Below the pieces are notes generated by a model. The model had not been told where the DNA came from, did not search any database, and saw only the letters and a program-made list of their open reading frames with translations. DNA of 21,687 bases from a virus. Positions 634-20,845 of this stretch are shown in pieces. Position numbers and translations under genes: made by a program. Every line of letters begins with the position of its first letter. Positions within the stretch are counted from its first letter, which is position 1. Location: the IMG/VR virus record IMGVR_UViG_3300025000_000460, positions 1 through 21,687 of that record; one strand, written 5' to 3'.

Positions 634-2470
634 AGCGGCAGCCCCTCCGCCAAAGCTTACTATAAGCGAGTGGGCAGACCGGTATAGGAAGTTATCATCT
701 GAAAACGCTGCGGAGCCTGGCCAATGGCGCACAGATAGGGCGCCTTACCAGCGTGAGATAATGGATTGCATCACTAACCCAAAGATTGAAAAGGTTATTG
801 TTATGTCAAGCTCCCAGGTTGGTAAGTCAGAAATAATAAACAATACCTTAGGTTACTTTATAGATATTGATCCAGGTCCTTTGTTGATGATTCAGCCAAC
901 CATTGAAGTAGCACAGGATTACTCTAAGCGGCGTATCACGCCAATGATTAACGATACAGAAGCCCTAGCGGCAAGAGTGGCCGATTCAAAAACCAGAGAC
1001 CTTAATAACACAATCTTGATGAAAGTTTTCCCCGGTGGTTTCTTGGCTATGGGGGGTGCAAACTCTCCGGCTGGTTTAGCTAGTAGACCTATTCGCATTC
1101 TACTAGCTGATGAGGTTGACAGATATCCTGACAGTGCCGGTGGCGAAGGCGATCCCATTGCCCTGGCTGAAAAACGGACAACTACCTTCTGGAATCGGAA
1201 AAAAATATTTGTTTCTACCCCTACGATAAGGGGAGTCTCACGTATCGAACAGGAGTACGAACTTGGTACCCAAGAAAAATGGTGTATTTTATGTACTAAA
1301 TGCGGTGAGTATCACTTTATAACACTGCGGGATATTCAGTTTGATTATGAAAAGCATGAAAAAAACCGCAAAATAATTTATACCGTGAACGATGTAAAAT
1401 GGCGCTGCCCATCCTGCCTAGCGGAATACGATGAATATGCAGCCAAAAAACTCCCAGCCATATGGATTGCTGAAAATCAAATGGCCATAGAAAACGGTAT
1501 CAGAAGTTTTCGGATGAATTCTTTTGTATCTCCGTGGTATTCCTGGAAGCGGATCATCCAAGAATTTTTAGAGTCAAAGAAAGACCCGGAACGGTTTAAG
1601 GTTTTTGTCAATACCGTCCTGGGAGAAACATGGGAAGAGCGTGGAGAAATTGACGACGAGAGCATCTTGCTTGACCGGCGAGAAGAATATAAAGCCGATC
1701 TCCCTGATGGTGTTTTGATTATCACGATGGCCGTTGATACTCAGAATGACAGGCTGGAATATGAAGTAATAGGCTGGGGGCACGGCGAAGAATCTTGGGG
1801 AATTGAAAAAGGTATCATCTGGGGCAAGCCGGACGATAAGAAAACCTGGCTAATGCTGGATGATAAGCTTTCTAGGGTATGGAATTTTTCAGATAGCACC
1901 GGTCTGGTAATAGCCTGCACCTGCATAGACTCAGGCGGTCACTTCACGGAAGATGTTTATAAGTATTGCGGTGAGAGACTGCAAAAGAGAGTATTTCCGA
2001 TCAAGGGCCAGGGCGGTTCCGGAATACCTCTGGTACATAAAATTTCACGGAATAATAAGTATAAGTTGCCGCTAATCATGCTTGGCGTAGACTCTGGTAA
2101 AACCTCTACCATGCAGCGACTAAAAATAAAAAAACCTGGCCCGAAGTATTGCCACTTCCCACTCCAGGAAGAGCGGGGTTATGACCAAATATATTTTAAG
2201 GGATTAATTTCAGAAAAGCAGGTCATAAGAAAAGAGAAGGGCCGGACAGTAACTGCATGGGAAAACATAGCTAAGGACAAAAGAAACGAGCCGCTTGATT
2301 TACGGGTATATGCTTTAGCAGCACTGCAATTGCTTAAACCAAATTTTGAAGCCTTAGAAAAACGGCTTAAGGAGGTTGGTTTGGGGCAACAAAACAGCAG
2401 TCCTAAGTCAGCAAGTAAAGCACCTCAAAAGCGTTATGGAAGTGCCCAAAAAACATCGGATTATTATTAA
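587..2470 (+). CDS. terL: terminase large subunit (GpA family)
   Basis: Packaging motor ATPase and nuclease that cuts phage DNA and translocates it into the prohead through the portal. Numbered from ATG 587, the ATPase shows the GpA-type Walker A SSSQVGKSE near residues 74-82 and a Walker B LLADE near 172-176. A cysteine set, CxxCxxC at about 233-239 and CPSC at about 274-277, looks like the zinc-binding insertion common in GpA proteins. The C-terminal nuclease half has acidic candidates in AVDTQND (about 384) and CIDSGG (about 448). The length (about 627 residues) is normal for the family. The start is uncertain: ATG 560 and ATG 587 are possible, but TTG 593 has the best-spaced ribosome site (GGTGA, 583-587). 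The gene overlaps the small terminase. Confidence 0.95.
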   Translation: MLLKRKTTKLYSRIFKAAAPPPKLTISEWADRYRKLSSENAAEPGQWRTDRAPYQREIMDCITNPKIEKVIVMSSSQVGKSEIINNTLGYFIDIDPGPLLMIQPTIEVAQDYSKRRITPMINDTEALAARVADSKTRDLNNTILMKVFPGGFLAMGGANSPAGLASRPIRILLADEVDRYPDSAGGEGDPIALAEKRTTTFWNRKKIFVSTPTIRGVSRIEQEYELGTQEKWCILCTKCGEYHFITLRDIQFDYEKHEKNRKIIYTVNDVKWRCPSCLAEYDEYAAKKLPAIWIAENQMAIENGIRSFRMNSFVSPWYSWKRIIQEFLESKKDPERFKVFVNTVLGETWEERGEIDDESILLDRREEYKADLPDGVLIITMAVDTQNDRLEYEVIGWGHGEESWGIEKGIIWGKPDDKKTWLMLDDKLSRVWNFSDSTGLVIACTCIDSGGHFTEDVYKYCGERLQKRVFPIKGQGGSGIPLVHKISRNNKYKLPLIMLGVDSGKTSTMQRLKIKKPGPKYCHFPLQEERGYDQIYFKGLISEKQVIRKEKGRTVTAWENIAKDKRNEPLDLRVYALAALQLLKPNFEALEKRLKEVGLGQQNSSPKSASKAPQKRYGSAQKTSDYY

Positions 2471-2483
2471 AGACGGTGATTTT

Positions 2484-2720
2484 ATGTCTACAGACAGACT
2501 TCAATTAGCTAAAGACCGCCTTGCCGCTTATTATCAGGCTGAAATGGCTGTCTTAACCGGGCAAGAATATACAATTGGTTCGCGTTCCTTGAAGCGTGCA
2601 GACCTGGCGCAAATACGCTCCGCGATAAAAGAACTGGAAGGCCATGTTCAGATGCTGGAAGCTCAGGCAAGTGGTAGCACAGCTAGCAGGGCTAGGCGCA
2701 TAGTCCTGCGTGACATTTAG
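2484..2720 (+). CDS. gpW-like / DUF6148 head completion protein
   Basis: A 78-residue protein between the terminase and portal, the place occupied by lambda gpW. It begins with an amphipathic helix and contains the segment AVLTGQEYTIGSRSLKRADL, followed by a second long helix and a short basic tail (RARRIVLRDI). This GQSYTIGSRSLxRA-type pattern is familiar from DUF6148/gpW-like head-tail joining proteins of Firmicutes phages. By analogy with gpW it would bind beneath the portal after packaging and retain DNA. ATG 2484 is preceded by GGTGAT at 2475-2480. The open frame extends upstream into the terminase gene, but the homologous-looking sequence begins only at this ATG. Confidence 0.8.
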   Translation: MSTDRLQLAKDRLAAYYQAEMAVLTGQEYTIGSRSLKRADLAQIRSAIKELEGHVQMLEAQASGSTASRARRIVLRDI

Positions 2721-2731
2721 GTGGTGAGATA

Positions 2732-4339
2732 TTGAATATAGTCGACAGAGCGATAGCGTTTTTAAATCCCCGAAAAGCCTTGGAGCGCACAGCAGCACGT
2801 AAAACCCTTGAAGTTTTAAACTCGGGATATTCCGAATCGGGCGCATCGATGCGCAAAAAATCAATGAAGGGTTGGCGGGCAAGCAGTAGTAGTCCCCAGG
2901 CCGATATCGACATGAATCTGGATACCCTTCGACAGCGGTCAAGGGATTTGTTTATGGGTGGTGCACTGGGCCGGTCGGCTATCGTTACCCCTAGGACAAA
3001 TGTGGTTGGGGCAGGACTAAGACTTAAAAGCCGCATCGACTACGAATTTTTGGGTATCACTAGAGAGCAAGCCGACCAATGGGAAAGAAGTGTCGAGCGA
3101 GAATTTTCACTTTGGGCAGATTCTAAATTCTGCGATATTTTGCGACTGGATAATTTTTACGAAATGCAATCAAAGTTATTTATTTCTAAGTTATTAAACG
3201 GTGACGGATGGGCGGCCATAAAGCAGGGTGAGATAAAAAGATATTTCCCCTATGCGCTACGCATTCACTTGTTTGAGGCAGACAGGGTAAGTACACCTGA
3301 CACGTTCTCATCATATGGGATGCAGGGCATAAATCCAGATAACGGCAACCGCATATACAGTGGCGTGGAAGTTAATTCAGAGGGTGCAATTGTTGCCTAC
3401 TGGATTTCAAGTCACTATCCCTACGACCCGGCAAACCCCGAATGGAAATATGAGTGGACAAGGGTTGAGGCTTTCGGGGAGAAAACCGGTCAGCCAAACA
3501 TACTACAAATTATGGAGGCAGAACGTTGTGAGCAGTATAGGGGTGTACCATTTTTAGCACCGGTACTTGAAGCGATAAAACAAATTAGCCGCTACACCGA
3601 GGCAGAATTGATGGCAGCTATTGTCACCGGATTTTTTACGGTATTTATCAAAGAGGGGGAAACTCCGGTATCTGATTTTGCTTTGGCCGAGGCAGTGCCC
3701 GAGACAGAGAAGGTCAGTATTGACCCCAATGATTTTGAGTTGGGTGCAGGGACAATCAACTCCCTTCCTCCTGGCTACGATGTTGATATAGCTGATCCGA
3801 AAAGGCCAGCAACAAATTTTGATGCTTTTGTTACCGCTATATCCCGTCATATCGGGGCTGCTTTGGAGATACCTTACGAATTGCTACTAAAAAGTTTTAC
3901 ATCTAGCTATTCGGCATCAAGGGCAGCACTCCTGGAGGCTTGGAAATCTTTTAAGATGTCTCGGACATGGTTTGCAAATGACTTTTGTCAGCCGGTATAT
4001 GAATTATGGCTTTATGAAGCAGTAGCCAGGGGCAGGATTATAGCTCCTGGTTTTTTCAATGACCAGCTAATAGCCAAGGCCTGGGCAAGGGCTGAGTGGC
4101 ATGGTCCAGCTCCTGGGCAGATAGACCCAACTAAAGAGGTACAGGCTGCTAAGTTTCGGGTGGAAAATGGCTTCAGTACTAGGGAGAGGGAGACGATTGA
4201 GCTTACCGGTGGTGATTTTGACAGAAATATTGAGCAGTTGCAGCGTGAAAACGAGCTAATGAAGCAGGCGGGATTAAATCAGCCTGCTGCCGCGACACAG
4301 ACCGATGGGGGTAATAATAATGGCAAAGGTGCAGATTAA
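2732..4339 (+). CDS. portal protein (lambda gpB family)
   Basis: The dodecameric portal at the capsid vertex through which DNA enters and to which the tail attaches. The 535-residue length and sequence style match the lambda-family portal (Phage_portal_2). Visible elements are an N-terminal arginine-rich region with the pattern LRQRSRDLFMGG, followed by NVVGAGLRLKS, an alpha-helical wing, and a C-terminal half with SSYSASRAALLEAWKSF, which is characteristic of the family. The tail end is low-complexity (Gln, Asn, Gly). The start is TTG 2732 with GTGGTGAG at 2721-2728. The stop lies 11 bases after the preceding stop plus the gene length, and the 3' end overlaps the protease gene by about 20 bases, suggesting coupled translation. 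Confidence 0.95.
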   Translation: MNIVDRAIAFLNPRKALERTAARKTLEVLNSGYSESGASMRKKSMKGWRASSSSPQADIDMNLDTLRQRSRDLFMGGALGRSAIVTPRTNVVGAGLRLKSRIDYEFLGITREQADQWERSVEREFSLWADSKFCDILRLDNFYEMQSKLFISKLLNGDGWAAIKQGEIKRYFPYALRIHLFEADRVSTPDTFSSYGMQGINPDNGNRIYSGVEVNSEGAIVAYWISSHYPYDPANPEWKYEWTRVEAFGEKTGQPNILQIMEAERCEQYRGVPFLAPVLEAIKQISRYTEAELMAAIVTGFFTVFIKEGETPVSDFALAEAVPETEKVSIDPNDFELGAGTINSLPPGYDVDIADPKRPATNFDAFVTAISRHIGAALEIPYELLLKSFTSSYSASRAALLEAWKSFKMSRTWFANDFCQPVYELWLYEAVARGRIIAPGFFNDQLIAKAWARAEWHGPAPGQIDPTKEVQAAKFRVENGFSTRERETIELTGGDFDRNIEQLQRENELMKQAGLNQPAAATQTDGGNNNGKGAD

Positions 4340-15644: not shown

Positions 15645-15968
15645 GTGGCTGAGTATGACGTAACGGAAACTTTAGAAGAAATCGATTTTGGTGCGACCGG
15701 AGTAAAAGAAATTCTTCAAAATGTGCGAATGATATTGGCGACACCGATAATATCCTGCCCCATGAACCGTAATTTCGCATGGAGCCCTGACGTTGATGGC
15801 CCAATTAATATTGCTAAGGCTAAGATTACCGCCCGAATTGTGGCTGCCATACGTGAGTATGAACCCAGGGCACAGGTAACAAGCGTATCCTACCAGGGAG
15901 ATGGTCAAAATGGTACTCTTAAGCCCTTGGTGAAAGTGAGGGTTGCTGATGTTGCTGCCGCGATTTAA
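15645..15968 (+). CDS. baseplate wedge protein W (T4 gp25-like)
   Basis: A 107-residue GPW_gp25 family protein that starts sheath assembly at the baseplate. The sequence has DVTETLEEIDFGATGVKEIL, a helical region with LATPIISCPMNRNFAWSPDV, and IAAIREYEPRAQVTSVSYQG-like stretch: VAAIREYEPRAQVTSVSYQG. The glutamate-proline-arginine in EPR is the family's hallmark. Start GTG 15645 with GGTGGTGGGAT just upstream. The gene follows U by 12 bases and its end overlaps the J start by about 20 bases, as in many contractile-tail operons. Confidence 0.92.
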   Translation: MAEYDVTETLEEIDFGATGVKEILQNVRMILATPIISCPMNRNFAWSPDVDGPINIAKAKITARIVAAIREYEPRAQVTSVSYQGDGQNGTLKPLVKVRVADVAAAI

Positions 15969-17067
15969 TTTACCGGAAATCAGTTTTGCGGAAAAATCAG
16001 CCGCGCAAATAGAGACTGATATACTCAATTGCTATAAAACGCTAACCAGCCAGGCACTGGGTAAAGCAGACCCTCGGAGATTTTTTTTGCAGGCAATTAT
16101 TCCAATTCTTGTTCAGCAGCGAGTTTTAATTGACTTCAGTGCCAAGCAAAACTTACTTGGATATTCAACCGGTGATTATTTGGACCAGTTGGGTGCTTTT
16201 ACTAATACAACACGTTTGCCAGCCACAGCTGCAATAACTACAGAAAGGTTCACGTTGTCAATAGCGACACAGCAAACTATCCCAGCCGGTACAAGGGTAA
16301 CGGCAGGGGATGGTATTTTTTTTGCTACTAAAGAGGATGTTATTGTTGAGGCAGGGCAGTCGTATGTAGATGTAGAGGCCGAATGTACTCAGACAGGGAT
16401 TGCTGGCAATGGTTATGTATCAGGTGAGTTGAATCAGCTTGTAGACCCTCTGCAGTGGGTAGCATCAGTATCTAATATAACGGAGAGTGAAGGCGGTGTA
16501 GATGAAGAGAGTGACGATTCCTATGCTGCTCGTATTCAGCAATCGTCGGAATCATTTTCTGTGGCTGGACCAACCGGAGCATATCAGTACTGGGCAAAAA
16601 CAGCTAGTCAGTCAATAGTCGATGTTTTGATTCGTAGTCCTTCACCAGGAGTCATTGAAATTCGGCCACTGCTGGTAGGGGGAGAAATGCCTAGTCAGGA
16701 GATACTTGACCTAGTGCTTATAACTTGCAGTGACAGCAAAATTAGACCCTTAACGGATAATGTTCAAGTATTAGCTCCTGAACAGGTATTTTATGATATA
16801 TCTCTTATTTACTGGATATCGTCTATAAATTCAAGTACTGCTGGCAGTATCCAAAGTAAGGTTACCCAAGCCATAGAGGACTACAAACTATGGCAAAAAT
16901 CTAAAATGGGTCGAGCAATAGATCCATCTGAATTGATTACCCGCATTAAAAACGCTGGCGCTAAACGTGTGGTCGTAACATTCCCGGTATACCAGCAAAT
17001 CTCTGAATACCACGTAGCAAAAGAAAATCTAGTTACGGTCATTTATGGAGGCCTTGAAAATAACTAA
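15949..17067 (+). CDS. baseplate wedge protein J
   Basis: A 372-residue Baseplate_J-family protein, a wedge component linking the hub to the fibre-carrying parts of the baseplate. It shows an N-terminal helical region, LIDFSAKQNLLGYSTGDYLD, and a middle beta part with IPAGTRVTAGDGIFFATKED and QTGIAGNGYVSGELNQLVDP. The segment ESEGGVDEESDDSYAARIQQ is diagnostic of the family. The C-terminal part ends with GAKRVVVTFPVYQQISEYHV. ATG 15949 is preceded by GAGGG at 15938-15942. TTG 15943 is an alternative start. The gene is followed by a 25-base gap and a strong ribosome site. Confidence 0.93.
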   Translation: MLLPRFNLPEISFAEKSAAQIETDILNCYKTLTSQALGKADPRRFFLQAIIPILVQQRVLIDFSAKQNLLGYSTGDYLDQLGAFTNTTRLPATAAITTERFTLSIATQQTIPAGTRVTAGDGIFFATKEDVIVEAGQSYVDVEAECTQTGIAGNGYVSGELNQLVDPLQWVASVSNITESEGGVDEESDDSYAARIQQSSESFSVAGPTGAYQYWAKTASQSIVDVLIRSPSPGVIEIRPLLVGGEMPSQEILDLVLITCSDSKIRPLTDNVQVLAPEQVFYDISLIYWISSINSSTAGSIQSKVTQAIEDYKLWQKSKMGRAIDPSELITRIKNAGAKRVVVTFPVYQQISEYHVAKENLVTVIYGGLENN

Positions 17068-17092
17068 GCAAGGCGCCGGGTAGGAGGGGTAT

Positions 17093-18724
17093 ATGGTAGC
17101 GCAAATTAATGTGGATTTTTCAAAGGGTAAATATACCAGAACGCAATTTGACGGGAGTTTACTAAAGTTAACCGGTCCTACTGTTATTACTTCCAATCCA
17201 ACGAATACGACATACTGGCATCAATCTGGACAATCATGGGAATTGGAAGGTGATAAAGCCACGATAGATTCAAATGCCGGTAGTAATTATTTGTCGCTGA
17301 CATATAATCTCAGACAAGAAATCGCCACCACGTACCCGATTCTATTTAGAATTAAAGCAAAAGGTGATAATATCGGCGGTTCCGGAAACTATTCCGATTG
17401 GGGTATCCAACTACGAGTAACTTTTACTGATGCTGGACTTTCAGGGGGATACGAAGAGGTTCACCATGCATTTCCTCTGGGCACATGGGATGAACAGCAG
17501 TTTTCTGTTTTATATACACCTACTCAGTCAGCCCGGTATATTTATGCTTATGTCTATACCAGAAATTATACTGGGAAAATTACCGTTTGGGATTTGGAAG
17601 TCATTGAGTTAAAAGCAGAGAAGAATGTTTATGGTGAGTGGGAAAGCGAGGTCATCGATCTTTATAAAGATCTGAATGCCCCAGTAAAGACAAATACTAT
17701 TCGTTTAATTAAAATTGCTTTTAAATACGGTGATCTTTTCAATGTTGACGATCTCTACAGACTTGATCATAGTTTTGATAGGTTATCTCAATTTGATATG
17801 ATAATCTGTGAAAATCCTACGAAGCTAGATTCGCAAGAACAAGAAGTCGCCATAAGGTTAGTTTCTAACGGAAAGACGGTGTATGGGTACACCTATCTCG
17901 GAAGTACGGAAGATATCCCTTTGCTTGCTGATGCCGATCTGAAAAACCATATCGATCAATGCGCTAATTTGGGCTTTAAGGGCATCTTCATGGACATGGC
18001 CGGATATGACTACGGCGTAAGTAGAGATAGGCTGAATACTTATGTAAATTACGCCCATTTAAAAGGCCTTGCTGTTATGGCGAATGCTTGGACTCCCAGC
18101 AATTTGTTATCCAGTGATATTGCTACACTTAACCCAGCAGGCACACCCACGCATCTAGGTGTTGGTGACTGGATTTTGCTTGAAAGTTTTTTCTCTCGCG
18201 GCGATAGTACTTATGCAAACCCAACATTAATTACTACAAAATATATCCCAAGTATCACCTTAGCCCATTCTCTTGGGGTGAAGGTGGCCTCTCTGGCCTA
18301 CATGTTTGATGGTAAAACAATAGCTGAGTCATTACAAGACTGCAATCACTCATATCTCTTGTCGCTTATCCTTGGAGTAAGTGGGTGGTCGTATGGCACT
18401 ACGGATTTTACTGTATCGGAGATCCCAGACATAAGTTTTGGGAGGAATTTTGTTGGTTATGCGGAGCAGGTATCTGCAGATCGATGGGAACGTGAAACGG
18501 ACCAAGGAATTGTATGGATGGAGTGGTCTTCGAGCGTAAGAGAATCAGGAGTATATTCTACTACTGATGTGCTTTCATTTTCTCAGCCAACTGACCTTGA
18601 ATCAAAAATTGAGGGAACTTCCAAATTAACGTGGTTTACGAGTTCGGATAAAGAAAACTGGGTTAAGTGGATAAATGACAAACCAGGTCAATACGTAAAG
18701 TTAGAGGTAGAAATTTATTCATAA
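17093..18724 (+). CDS. putative carbohydrate-active TIM-barrel protein in the baseplate
   Basis: 543 residues, not a standard baseplate protein. Residues 1-175 look like a beta-sandwich carbohydrate-binding domain. Residues about 200-440 show eight strands in TIM-barrel order: IKIAFKYG (207), DMIICENP (235), TVYGYTYLG (262), GIFMDMAGYD (297), AVMANAW (327), ILLESFF (361), VASLAYM (398), GWSYGT (431). Asp301, Asp306 and Glu364 stand at strand ends, where barrel glycosidases keep catalytic acids. GFKGIFMD recalls GH114/spherulin-4-like enzymes, but this is a visual resemblance. The C-terminal 60 residues form another beta module (SGVYSTTDVLSF to QYVKLEVEIY). ATG 17093 has TAGGAGGGG upstream. 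Likely role: binding or cleaving host surface glycan. No signal peptide. Confidence 0.65.
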   Translation: MVAQINVDFSKGKYTRTQFDGSLLKLTGPTVITSNPTNTTYWHQSGQSWELEGDKATIDSNAGSNYLSLTYNLRQEIATTYPILFRIKAKGDNIGGSGNYSDWGIQLRVTFTDAGLSGGYEEVHHAFPLGTWDEQQFSVLYTPTQSARYIYAYVYTRNYTGKITVWDLEVIELKAEKNVYGEWESEVIDLYKDLNAPVKTNTIRLIKIAFKYGDLFNVDDLYRLDHSFDRLSQFDMIICENPTKLDSQEQEVAIRLVSNGKTVYGYTYLGSTEDIPLLADADLKNHIDQCANLGFKGIFMDMAGYDYGVSRDRLNTYVNYAHLKGLAVMANAWTPSNLLSSDIATLNPAGTPTHLGVGDWILLESFFSRGDSTYANPTLITTKYIPSITLAHSLGVKVASLAYMFDGKTIAESLQDCNHSYLLSLILGVSGWSYGTTDFTVSEIPDISFGRNFVGYAEQVSADRWERETDQGIVWMEWSSSVRESGVYSTTDVLSFSQPTDLESKIEGTSKLTWFTSSDKENWVKWINDKPGQYVKLEVEIYS

Positions 18725-18738
18725 GTGGGGGGATATAG

Positions 18739-19392
18739 GTGATTGATATATATACGGTTAAACTGCTAGATATTTTACCCGAGTCAATCAGAAGTGACCC
18801 CCAGGTGCGAGCCATGTCAGAAGCTATCTCCTCAGAACTACGGGCCGTTTCCGCCGCGATAGCAGAAACGATCCTTTTGCCCAGAATTGATGAGTTGGCG
18901 GAGGAAATTGTTGATTTGCTGGCATATCAACAACACGTAGACTTCTATGAAGCGGATCTGGTGCTTCAGCAAAAACGGGATCTAGCGAAACAATCCGTAG
19001 CATGGCATCGGCGAAAAGGAACAAAATGGGCGGTGGAGCAGGTTGTTTCTATTATCTTTCAAAATGCTATTGTTTCGGAATGGTTTGAGTATGGCGGGGA
19101 ACCATATTTTTTCCGAGTTGAAACAGAAGAAACTCTTAAGGCGGAAACGGACCTGGATCGCTTGGTGCGCCTTATAGATGCAACAAAAAACACCAGGTCC
19201 TGGCTTGAAAATATCACTATAAAACGCACCATCAATATGGGCTCAAGTTTAGGCGGATTATTTTCCGAATATAGGAAAACGGAGATTTACCCATTAACCT
19301 TCATTATGCCGGATATTGATAGCAACCAGTATTATTCTGGTGTAGCTTCTTGTTGGAACAATACAACCATAGGAAGCCCATACCCGAGTTAG
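18739..19392 (+). CDS. tail protein I (P2 gpI-like), ending at an amber codon
   Basis: A 217-residue protein resembling the Phage tail protein I family. Its helical N-terminal part includes LLDILPESIRSDPQVRAMSE, and LPRIDELAEEIVDLLAYQQH is the most typical element. A tryptophan-rich part follows: VAWHRRKGTKWAVEQVVSII. Such proteins connect wedge J to the fibre in the baseplate. GTG 18739 is preceded by GGGGGGAT. The order J-I-fibre is that of P2, here with the barrel gene between J and I. The frame stops at TAG 19390-19392, but sense codons continue in the same frame afterwards, so this end may not be the original one. Confidence 0.88.
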   Translation: MIDIYTVKLLDILPESIRSDPQVRAMSEAISSELRAVSAAIAETILLPRIDELAEEIVDLLAYQQHVDFYEADLVLQQKRDLAKQSVAWHRRKGTKWAVEQVVSIIFQNAIVSEWFEYGGEPYFFRVETEETLKAETDLDRLVRLIDATKNTRSWLENITIKRTINMGSSLGGLFSEYRKTEIYPLTFIMPDIDSNQYYSGVASCWNNTTIGSPYPS

Positions 19393-19506
19393 GACGATAC
19401 TATTGCTCAAGATGAATCATATCTATTAGACGAAAACATATCATGGAACGAATATTCCGGAGCTGAAGAACTTATTAATTATCTTTTCAACACTACTTCA
19501 ATTTAA
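19393..19506 (+). other. in-frame continuation of gpI after amber codon (readthrough or broken C-terminus)
   Basis: Directly after TAG 19390-19392, the same frame stays open for 37 codons to TAA at 19504-19506. The encoded stretch begins DDTIAQDESYLLDENISWNE and ends NYLFNTTSI. It is acidic and aromatic in the style of the preceding gpI tail (FIMPDIDSNQYYSGVASCWN). With readthrough gpI would be 255 residues. It may be a nonsense mutation in gpI, a readthrough extension, or a remnant. Positions 19507-19537 hold the ribosome site (AGGAGGTGA, 19523-19531) of the fibre gene and nothing else recognisable. Confidence 0.6.
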
Positions 19507-19537: not shown

Positions 19538-20845
19538 TTGGCTGAGTATACGGGCATGATTTTGACGAATTTGGGCCGTGACCTGCAAGCAAAGGCAGAA
19601 GCAGGAACGGCCTTAAGTTTTACAAAGGTAAAAATAGGCGACGGGCAAATTATAGAGGGGCAAACTCTGGAAGAATTAACCGACCTGGTTCACCCTCTCA
19701 AGATACTGGACATAATCAGCGTCCTGGCCGAGGGCGGGGGCCTTTGCCGGATTGTTTCGAGTATCACGAATACTGGCATAACGCAGGGCTTTTATGTCCG
19801 TGAAGTCGGGCTTTTCGCCATAGACCCTGATCTAGGAGAGATTCTATACGCTATTTCAACAACGTCAGCGGCAGACTATTTGCCGCCTGAGGGCGGGGCC
19901 ACAGTAGTAAATAACCAGTTCGACATAATTGTTGTTGTAGGCAATGCAAGTCAAATTACAGCAACAATATCCGCTACTGGATTGATTAACATGGGTATGT
20001 TTCAAGCCCAACAGTACGAGAACATAATTAAAAATGGTGACTTTTGGGGTTGGGCCTCAGATAATGGTATACCTGATGGGTGGGCAGTTATTAATAGCGA
20101 TGTTTTAAACAGTTATGATGTCAGTATCATATACTGGCTAACCGCACCCGCATGTATGAACTTAATAAAGAATGCTGTCGGTAGTGAAATGTCGTTATGT
20201 CAAACTGTAATTGACGCTGTTATATACAGATTGAAAGGCAAGAAGGTTTCACTAACAACTAATATCAAGACATCTGTCTCGTCCGGTGTGCACGCAACAA
20301 TACAATTCCTAGATACATCCAGTGAGGTAATATCCACCCATCACTCCGCTCATCATACTGGCAGTGATGGGTATGAGGAACTCACTATCTCAGTAGTTGT
20401 CCCGTCGAATACTTATACAATAAAAGTGTTTGCCGCTGCCATTGATAGTGATGCTCCTATTGGAGTCGTATATATTGATGAAGTAACGCTTGTGGCTGGC
20501 GAGGTCCCCATGCCTTTTACTAACCATCCTAATGACCAATATATAAAAGCAGTAGAATGTCAGTTGGGTGGAGATGATTCGTATTTTAGCCTCCCCAGAA
20601 TGCAGGTTGGTTACACAATAATCAACGATATTGGGGCTGGGTTAGTGGGTACTATAGCTGTTACTTATCCCTCTACGTTTTCTAATATACTTTCGGTTGT
20701 GACTACTATTGATGATGCCGACCCCAGTAAGTACAAAGTTTCTGTCAGCGACGTAACCGTAACAGGATTCAATCTGCACATCCATAATGGGGATTCGGTT
20801 ACGAGGTCCCTAAAGGCATGTTGGATCGCTATGGGGGTGAGCTAA
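19538..20845 (+). CDS. tail-collar fibre protein with jelly-roll module
   Basis: 435-residue tail fibre. The first 150 residues match the DUF3751/tail-collar N-terminal domain of P2-type fibres that attaches to the baseplate: MILTNLGRDLQAKAEAGTAL, FTKVKIGDGQ, and GFYVREVGLFAIDPDLGEIL. Residues about 160-330 look like a CBM4/9-type jelly roll, beginning IIKNGDFWGWASDNGIPDGW and ending YIDEVTLVAGEVP. The last 90 residues (VGYTIINDIGAGLVGTIAVT to CWIAMGVS) form a small beta domain that is probably the receptor-binding tip. It should recognise a surface glycan. TTG 19538 has AGGAGGTGA at 19523-19531. The stop overlaps the next ATG in TAATG. Confidence 0.85.
   Translation: MAEYTGMILTNLGRDLQAKAEAGTALSFTKVKIGDGQIIEGQTLEELTDLVHPLKILDIISVLAEGGGLCRIVSSITNTGITQGFYVREVGLFAIDPDLGEILYAISTTSAADYLPPEGGATVVNNQFDIIVVVGNASQITATISATGLINMGMFQAQQYENIIKNGDFWGWASDNGIPDGWAVINSDVLNSYDVSIIYWLTAPACMNLIKNAVGSEMSLCQTVIDAVIYRLKGKKVSLTTNIKTSVSSGVHATIQFLDTSSEVISTHHSAHHTGSDGYEELTISVVVPSNTYTIKVFAAAIDSDAPIGVVYIDEVTLVAGEVPMPFTNHPNDQYIKAVECQLGGDDSYFSLPRMQVGYTIINDIGAGLVGTIAVTYPSTFSNILSVVTTIDDADPSKYKVSVSDVTVTGFNLHIHNGDSVTRSLKACWIAMGVS

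Follow-up and report, generated by a model that had tools for sequence, protein, structure and literature searches.

The inserted gene and its junction

The window, by which we mean the whole stretch of DNA analysed here, is a 21,687-base virus fragment carrying a myovirus structural cluster that runs from the terminase to a tail fibre. Within its tail operon, between genes J and I, lies an uninterrupted ORF of 543 codons with an ATG start, which is present as a real gene; in shuffled copies of the stretch the longest ORF was at most 157 codons, compared with 543 for the inserted gene. The junction is laid out as follows.

15943..17067, + strand: gene J, baseplate wedge, upstream neighbour (PF04865, E 3.5e-59; phrog_6)
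17082..17089, + strand: ribosome-binding site of the inserted gene, AGGAGGGG, a good site by sequence
17093..18724, + strand: inserted gene, phage-borne glycoside-hydrolase-like protein (ORF, homology to the relative L153, AlphaFold2 model, absence at the J-I site of prophages G091, G392 and G357)
18739..19392, + strand: gene I, tail protein, downstream neighbour (PF09684, E 9.7e-24)
19538..20845, + strand: tail fibre with a C-terminal H-type lectin domain (PF12571; PF09458, E 1.7e-8)

J and I are separated by 1,671 bases and are both complete at the junction, which rules out a split J or I gene as the origin of the ORF. In the three nearest relatives of J that were found (prophages G091, G392 and G357, whose J is 62-69% identical to that of the window by tblastn), J directly adjoins or overlaps I, so that the gene at this site is not conserved in related tails and is an accessory insertion. 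A preliminary description of this DNA had proposed just such an insertion, and both the ORF and the contact of J and I in related prophages bear it out. The G+C content of the gene (0.405) is only slightly under the window mean (0.443). Judged by the terminase, the closest prophage relatives are G230 and G091 (79% identical), taken from the phylum to which an uncultured Selenomonadales genome belongs, and this kinship makes a host in or near the Negativicutes likely.

Further downstream, at 19390-19506, the TAG stop of gene I is followed by a frame that stays open for 37 further codons up to a TAA (DDTIAQDESYLL...), and gpI may contain an in-frame amber stop within a C-terminal extension.

Predicted fold and putative active site

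The AlphaFold2 model of the whole protein (50 sequences in the input alignment) had a pLDDT of 73, with the barrel mostly above 90, while residues 195-490 modelled alone (65 sequences) gave a full eight-strand (beta/alpha)8 barrel with a pLDDT of 92 and a pTM of 0.91. The predicted layout consists of a beta-sandwich (approximately residues 41-172), an eight-strand barrel (206-435) and a C-terminal beta module (458-489), and thus agrees with the three modules that had been read from the sequence beforehand. The beta-sandwich is probably a binding module, going by the model; the N-terminal module had no Pfam match, and no attachment or anchoring domain was recognised in the inserted protein.

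17093..17662, + strand: N-terminal beta-sandwich module, residues 1-190, binding-module-like (model strands 41-172; 32% identity to L153)
17699..18412, + strand: (beta/alpha)8 barrel, residues 203-440 (AlphaFold2 model of residues 195-490)
17993..17995, + strand: Asp301 codon, end of strand 4, proposed nucleophile (Asp in 65 of 65 aligned rows; Lys in phage KLEB27-3)
18167..18169, + strand: Asp359 codon, invariant (65 of 65 rows)
18182..18184, + strand: Glu364 codon, end of strand 6, proposed acid/base (65 of 65 rows)
18425..18562, + strand: C-terminal beta module, residues 445-490 (model strands 458-489)

In the model, strands 4, 5 and 6 end in Asp301, Asn331 and Glu364, respectively. Asp301, Arg311, Asp359 and Glu364 are invariant in the 65 aligned rows, Asn331 and His322 nearly so, and position 301 is never Glu. 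Residues 311, 322, 331, 359 and 364 fall outside the DNA pattern with which the family was collected (see below), and the conservation of Gly297, Phe299, Asp301, Gly304, Tyr305, Asp306 and Gly308 is partly forced by it; of the latter set, only the constant choice of Asp over Glu at 301 counts as independent evidence. The window protein keeps Asp301, Asp306, Arg311, His322, Asn331, Asp359 and Glu364. Asp301, Asp306 and Glu364 were correctly placed in the preliminary description, and its wider claim, acids at the strand ends, fits both Asp301 and Glu364. These two are separated by 63 residues, and the corresponding Asp/Glu spacing is 58-69 in Ega3, PelA and TmGH191 (PMC12054363). Conservation and position both support a retaining mechanism in which Asp301 would be the nucleophile and Glu364 the acid/base, and catalysis by the inserted protein is likely.

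The branch to which the window protein belongs is without several residues common in the family, namely Gly240, His244, Trp290 and the acid at position 302, directly after Asp301, where most members have Asp or Glu and the window protein has Met. Given these missing residues, the binding site of this branch probably differs from that of the rest of the family.

A barrel family in phages and bacteria

Searches of the window protein against Pfam, PHROG and NCBIfam yielded no usable match (those to PmbA and aldolase were at chance level), sequence searches of the PDB returned chance matches only, and no match was found in plasmids. When loci were searched with a single protein, a two-row alignment or a narrow DNA pattern, the only hit was a duplicate contig of the same phage (L002, 6,275 bases, 100% identical), which provides no independent evidence. 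A degenerate DNA pattern encoding G[VI][FY]x[DE]xxG[YF][DE][YF]G, built from the window protein and KLEB27-3, retrieved 72 stretches from viruses and 104 from bacteria or archaea; a profile search then placed the barrel in 103 loci (domain E <1e-3), the window and the duplicate records of its phage included.

The best relative, L153 (a Bacillota MAG contig, 1029-3083), aligns with nearly the entire window protein, N-terminal module included (phmmer E 2e-83), and is probably a phage too, since a holin gene (PF09682) adjoins it. In the tree, the window groups with L153 (support 100/98) and L116 (98/98), and a viral-only clade of 29 rows is present. In L153, an additional domain of roughly 100 residues is set within the barrel, before the strand that bears the acid/base Glu. 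The 600-residue neighbour of L153 (3096-4898) has an S-layer homology domain, a weak glycoside-hydrolase-like match of the Rv2525c type and one more, unassigned part. Tandem pairs of barrel-family genes occur on virus contig L022 (8652-11509) as well as in L032 and L035.

Among 50,697 deposited phages, Bacillus phage KLEB27-3 was the sole detectable relative with four different queries. Its barrel (L003 6010-6870) is homologous to that of the window, which it matches weakly (approximately 25% identity), but it is fused into a 2,078-residue tail fibre and has Lys in place of Asp301, whereas the window protein is encoded by a separate gene and keeps the Asp. Such a substitution means loss of the nucleophile and makes a binding-only role possible; the KLEB27-3 barrel is likely inactive, an enzyme turned binder. 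Elsewhere, some viral loci have the barrel in structural modules together with tape measure, minor tail, neck or portal genes, as in L074, where it is combined with a YQBQ-like N-terminus and a tape measure gene is adjacent. The tail genes of the window had no match in any other barrel-bearing viral locus. Judging by the lack of shared tail genes and by these structural placements, the domain seems to have moved between unrelated phages.

Linkage to pel loci and candidate substrate

PelF (NF038011, over cut-off) is encoded at most 7 kb from the barrel gene in 10 of the 27 bacterial genomes checked, loci that had been picked by the barrel motif and not by pel; by our estimate, a random gene would lie that close to a single pelF in about 0.3% of genomes (14 kb in ~5 Mb). 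The ten comprise seven Bacillota, one Thiomicrospira, one cyanobacterial MAG and one Acidobacteria MAG. As the Bacillota members form one clade (100/97), with the cyanobacterial and Acidobacteria MAG members as sisters, this clustering corresponds to about three independent events. In a sample of the family Paenibacillaceae, the barrel was present in 6 of 105 genomes, with PelF about 5 kb away in two of the six.

In Paenibacillus, the barrel gene is divergent from a locus with an epimerase-PelD-like fusion, a PelA-deacetylase-like gene and PelF, while in Ectobacillus panaciterrae (L171 6352-7998; L226) it comes after PelF, a GH114 gene and a gene whose place and pattern of membrane segments we read as PelG-like. 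The GH114 gene and the barrel gene stand directly side by side, such that one pel locus contains two different hydrolases. In published Gram-positive pel loci, the edge is likewise occupied by a divergently oriented hydrolase of the PelA type (PMC7112168), and the biofilm polymer Pel itself consists of alpha-1,4-linked GalN/GalNAc (PMC9135694). The pelF linkage, the layout of the pel loci and the Spherulin4 matches described below make a galactosamine-type alpha-glycan the leading guess for the substrate of the family, and the linkage lends support to the earlier suggestion of an exopolysaccharide as the likely target. For the window protein itself, a Pel-like substrate is a moderate guess, weaker than for the family, because its branch lies outside the pel-linked clade and because few genomes in the order to which the nearest prophage host (that of G091) belongs have PelF (over cut-off in 4 of 113).

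The gene of this GalN/GalNAc-linked family is near the tail fibre with the H-type lectin domain (window 19538-20845). The founding member of the H-type lectin family binds GalNAc, and the domain is common in fibres; in the present fibre it would suit a GalNAc-bearing target.

Proposed role and alternative explanations

Building on what was computed here, namely the gene, its insertion, the predicted fold, the conserved acids and the pelF linkage of relatives, we consider the inserted protein to be probably a polysaccharide hydrolase carried by a phage, belonging to an unnamed barrel family and encoded in an unusual place. More specifically, and with moderate confidence, we favour a phage polysaccharide depolymerase on or near the baseplate, in which a beta-sandwich accompanies a TIM barrel that cuts an alpha-linked, probably amino-sugar-rich polymer. 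Judging by the position of its gene, the protein would be made together with the late tail genes. It would probably travel at or near the baseplate. The N-terminal beta-sandwich, to go by its fold, would bind the target, the barrel would cleave an alpha-linked surface or biofilm polymer (with Pel-like alpha-1,4-GalN/GalNAc as the leading candidate), and the coat would be cleared ahead of the tail tip. As the bacterial relatives often lie beside Pel-making genes, the virus may use the enzyme to clear such a coat. Counted against a depolymerase are the position of the window branch outside the pel-linked clade, the missing family-common residues, the modest TM-scores reported below, the rarity of PelF in the order of G091 and the lack of a recognised attachment domain. 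A broader and more tentative possibility concerns the family as a whole, which could represent a phage-spread Pel-type hydrolase that bacteria keep as a further pel-side hydrolase and that unrelated phages took into their tail modules, here between J and I, to pass Pel-like coats.

The place of action could also be different. A soluble enzyme, freed at lysis to release progeny from a biofilm or coat and not part of the virion, would agree with the gene's own ribosome-binding site, its recent and clean insertion, the lack of a recognised attachment domain and the holin gene that adjoins its closest relative, L153. We nevertheless consider this somewhat unlikely, as the gene sits within the tail operon and other viral members are found among structural genes or in tail-type proteins (L074 and the KLEB27-3 fibre). 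Slightly less probable is a true glycoside hydrolase that acts on another polymer, be it a fucose-rich polysaccharide (GH168-like), a capsule or a host cell-wall glycan. It is an endo-fucanase of GH168 that provides the best solved match, likely binding residues that follow strand 2 are different in the window branch, and few genomes of the probable host order have PelF; on the other hand, ten relatives are linked to pelF, the family gives a Spherulin4/GH135 sequence signal, and no fucan context was seen. Finally, a protein that only binds glycans, with the barrel retained for adhesion and without catalysis, is improbable: it could draw on Lys301 in the sole deposited phage with the domain and on Met302 in the window protein, but position 302 also varies in L116 and L153 and the window protein keeps all seven of the conserved residues listed above.

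If confirmed, the depolymerase reading would make the family a new source of biofilm-dispersing enzymes, and would provide a function for about 100 unannotated viral and bacterial genes.

Comparison with known hydrolase families

Full-length Foldseek searches returned mostly generic barrels, and the barrel was refolded alone. Against the PDB, its best match was a GH168 endo-fucanase (TM 0.61-0.62 when normalised to query length and 0.52 when normalised to the target), with GH191 next among the glycosidases (matches 5, 9 and 11, TM 0.50-0.52); these scores are modest (0.50-0.62), and unrelated generic barrels score nearly as well with similar E-values. No GH166 protein was among the 50 matches listed. 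Much higher scores (TM 0.78-0.79) were obtained in a library of viral structures for two phage proteins, which include an uncharacterised one from Myoviridae. A class II aldolase or other metabolic barrel was rejected, as the acid pattern, the Spherulin4 signal and the pel context favour a hydrolase.

GH168 has an Asp/Glu pair as in the window protein (206/264 in FunA; PMC11943901), with 11-12% identity and no match at the sequence level. The Spherulin4 profile (PF12138, GH135) weakly matches 36 of the 65 family members at E up to 0.01; among those listed, none reaches the Pfam cut-off (best 27.9 of 30.2 bits), and the window protein itself has no match. GH135 proteins such as fungal Sph3 share with the window model a (beta/alpha)8 barrel in which an Asp follows strand 4 and a Glu follows strand 6. 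Neither the window protein nor the 65 members matched GH114 (PF03537) in Pfam, and an hhalign comparison between the family and the Ectobacillus GH114 protein covered only 59 columns, which does not establish direct sequence kinship with GH114. The GH166 hydrolase domain of PelA, GH114 Ega3 and GH191 appear to share the predicted fold of the window protein and have an Asp/Glu pair at similar spacing (PMC12054363), and Asp and Glu at the ends of strands 4 and 6 are common to the window protein and the retaining endo-galactosaminidases of GH114, GH135, GH166 and GH191. The glycoside-hydrolase kinship put forward in the preliminary description is supported by the Foldseek matches to GH168 and GH191, the sub-threshold Spherulin4/GH135 signal and the GH114/166/191-like active-site spacing, while the particular families it had suggested (GH114, GH18/GH20 and DUF4874) gave no Pfam match.

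Bacterial members of the family resemble PelA_H of bacilli in their position at the edge of pel operons (PMC7112168). A possible virus-borne parallel is provided by the 'spherulation-specific family 4' proteins of Atacama soil viruses, which were found with the Spherulin4 profile and described as a sporulation gene (PMC8269230). As Spherulin4 is the glycoside hydrolase family GH135, these Atacama proteins may cut polysaccharide, and confirmation of our reading would point to polysaccharide-cutting enzymes as the products of some virus genes termed 'spherulation' stress genes.
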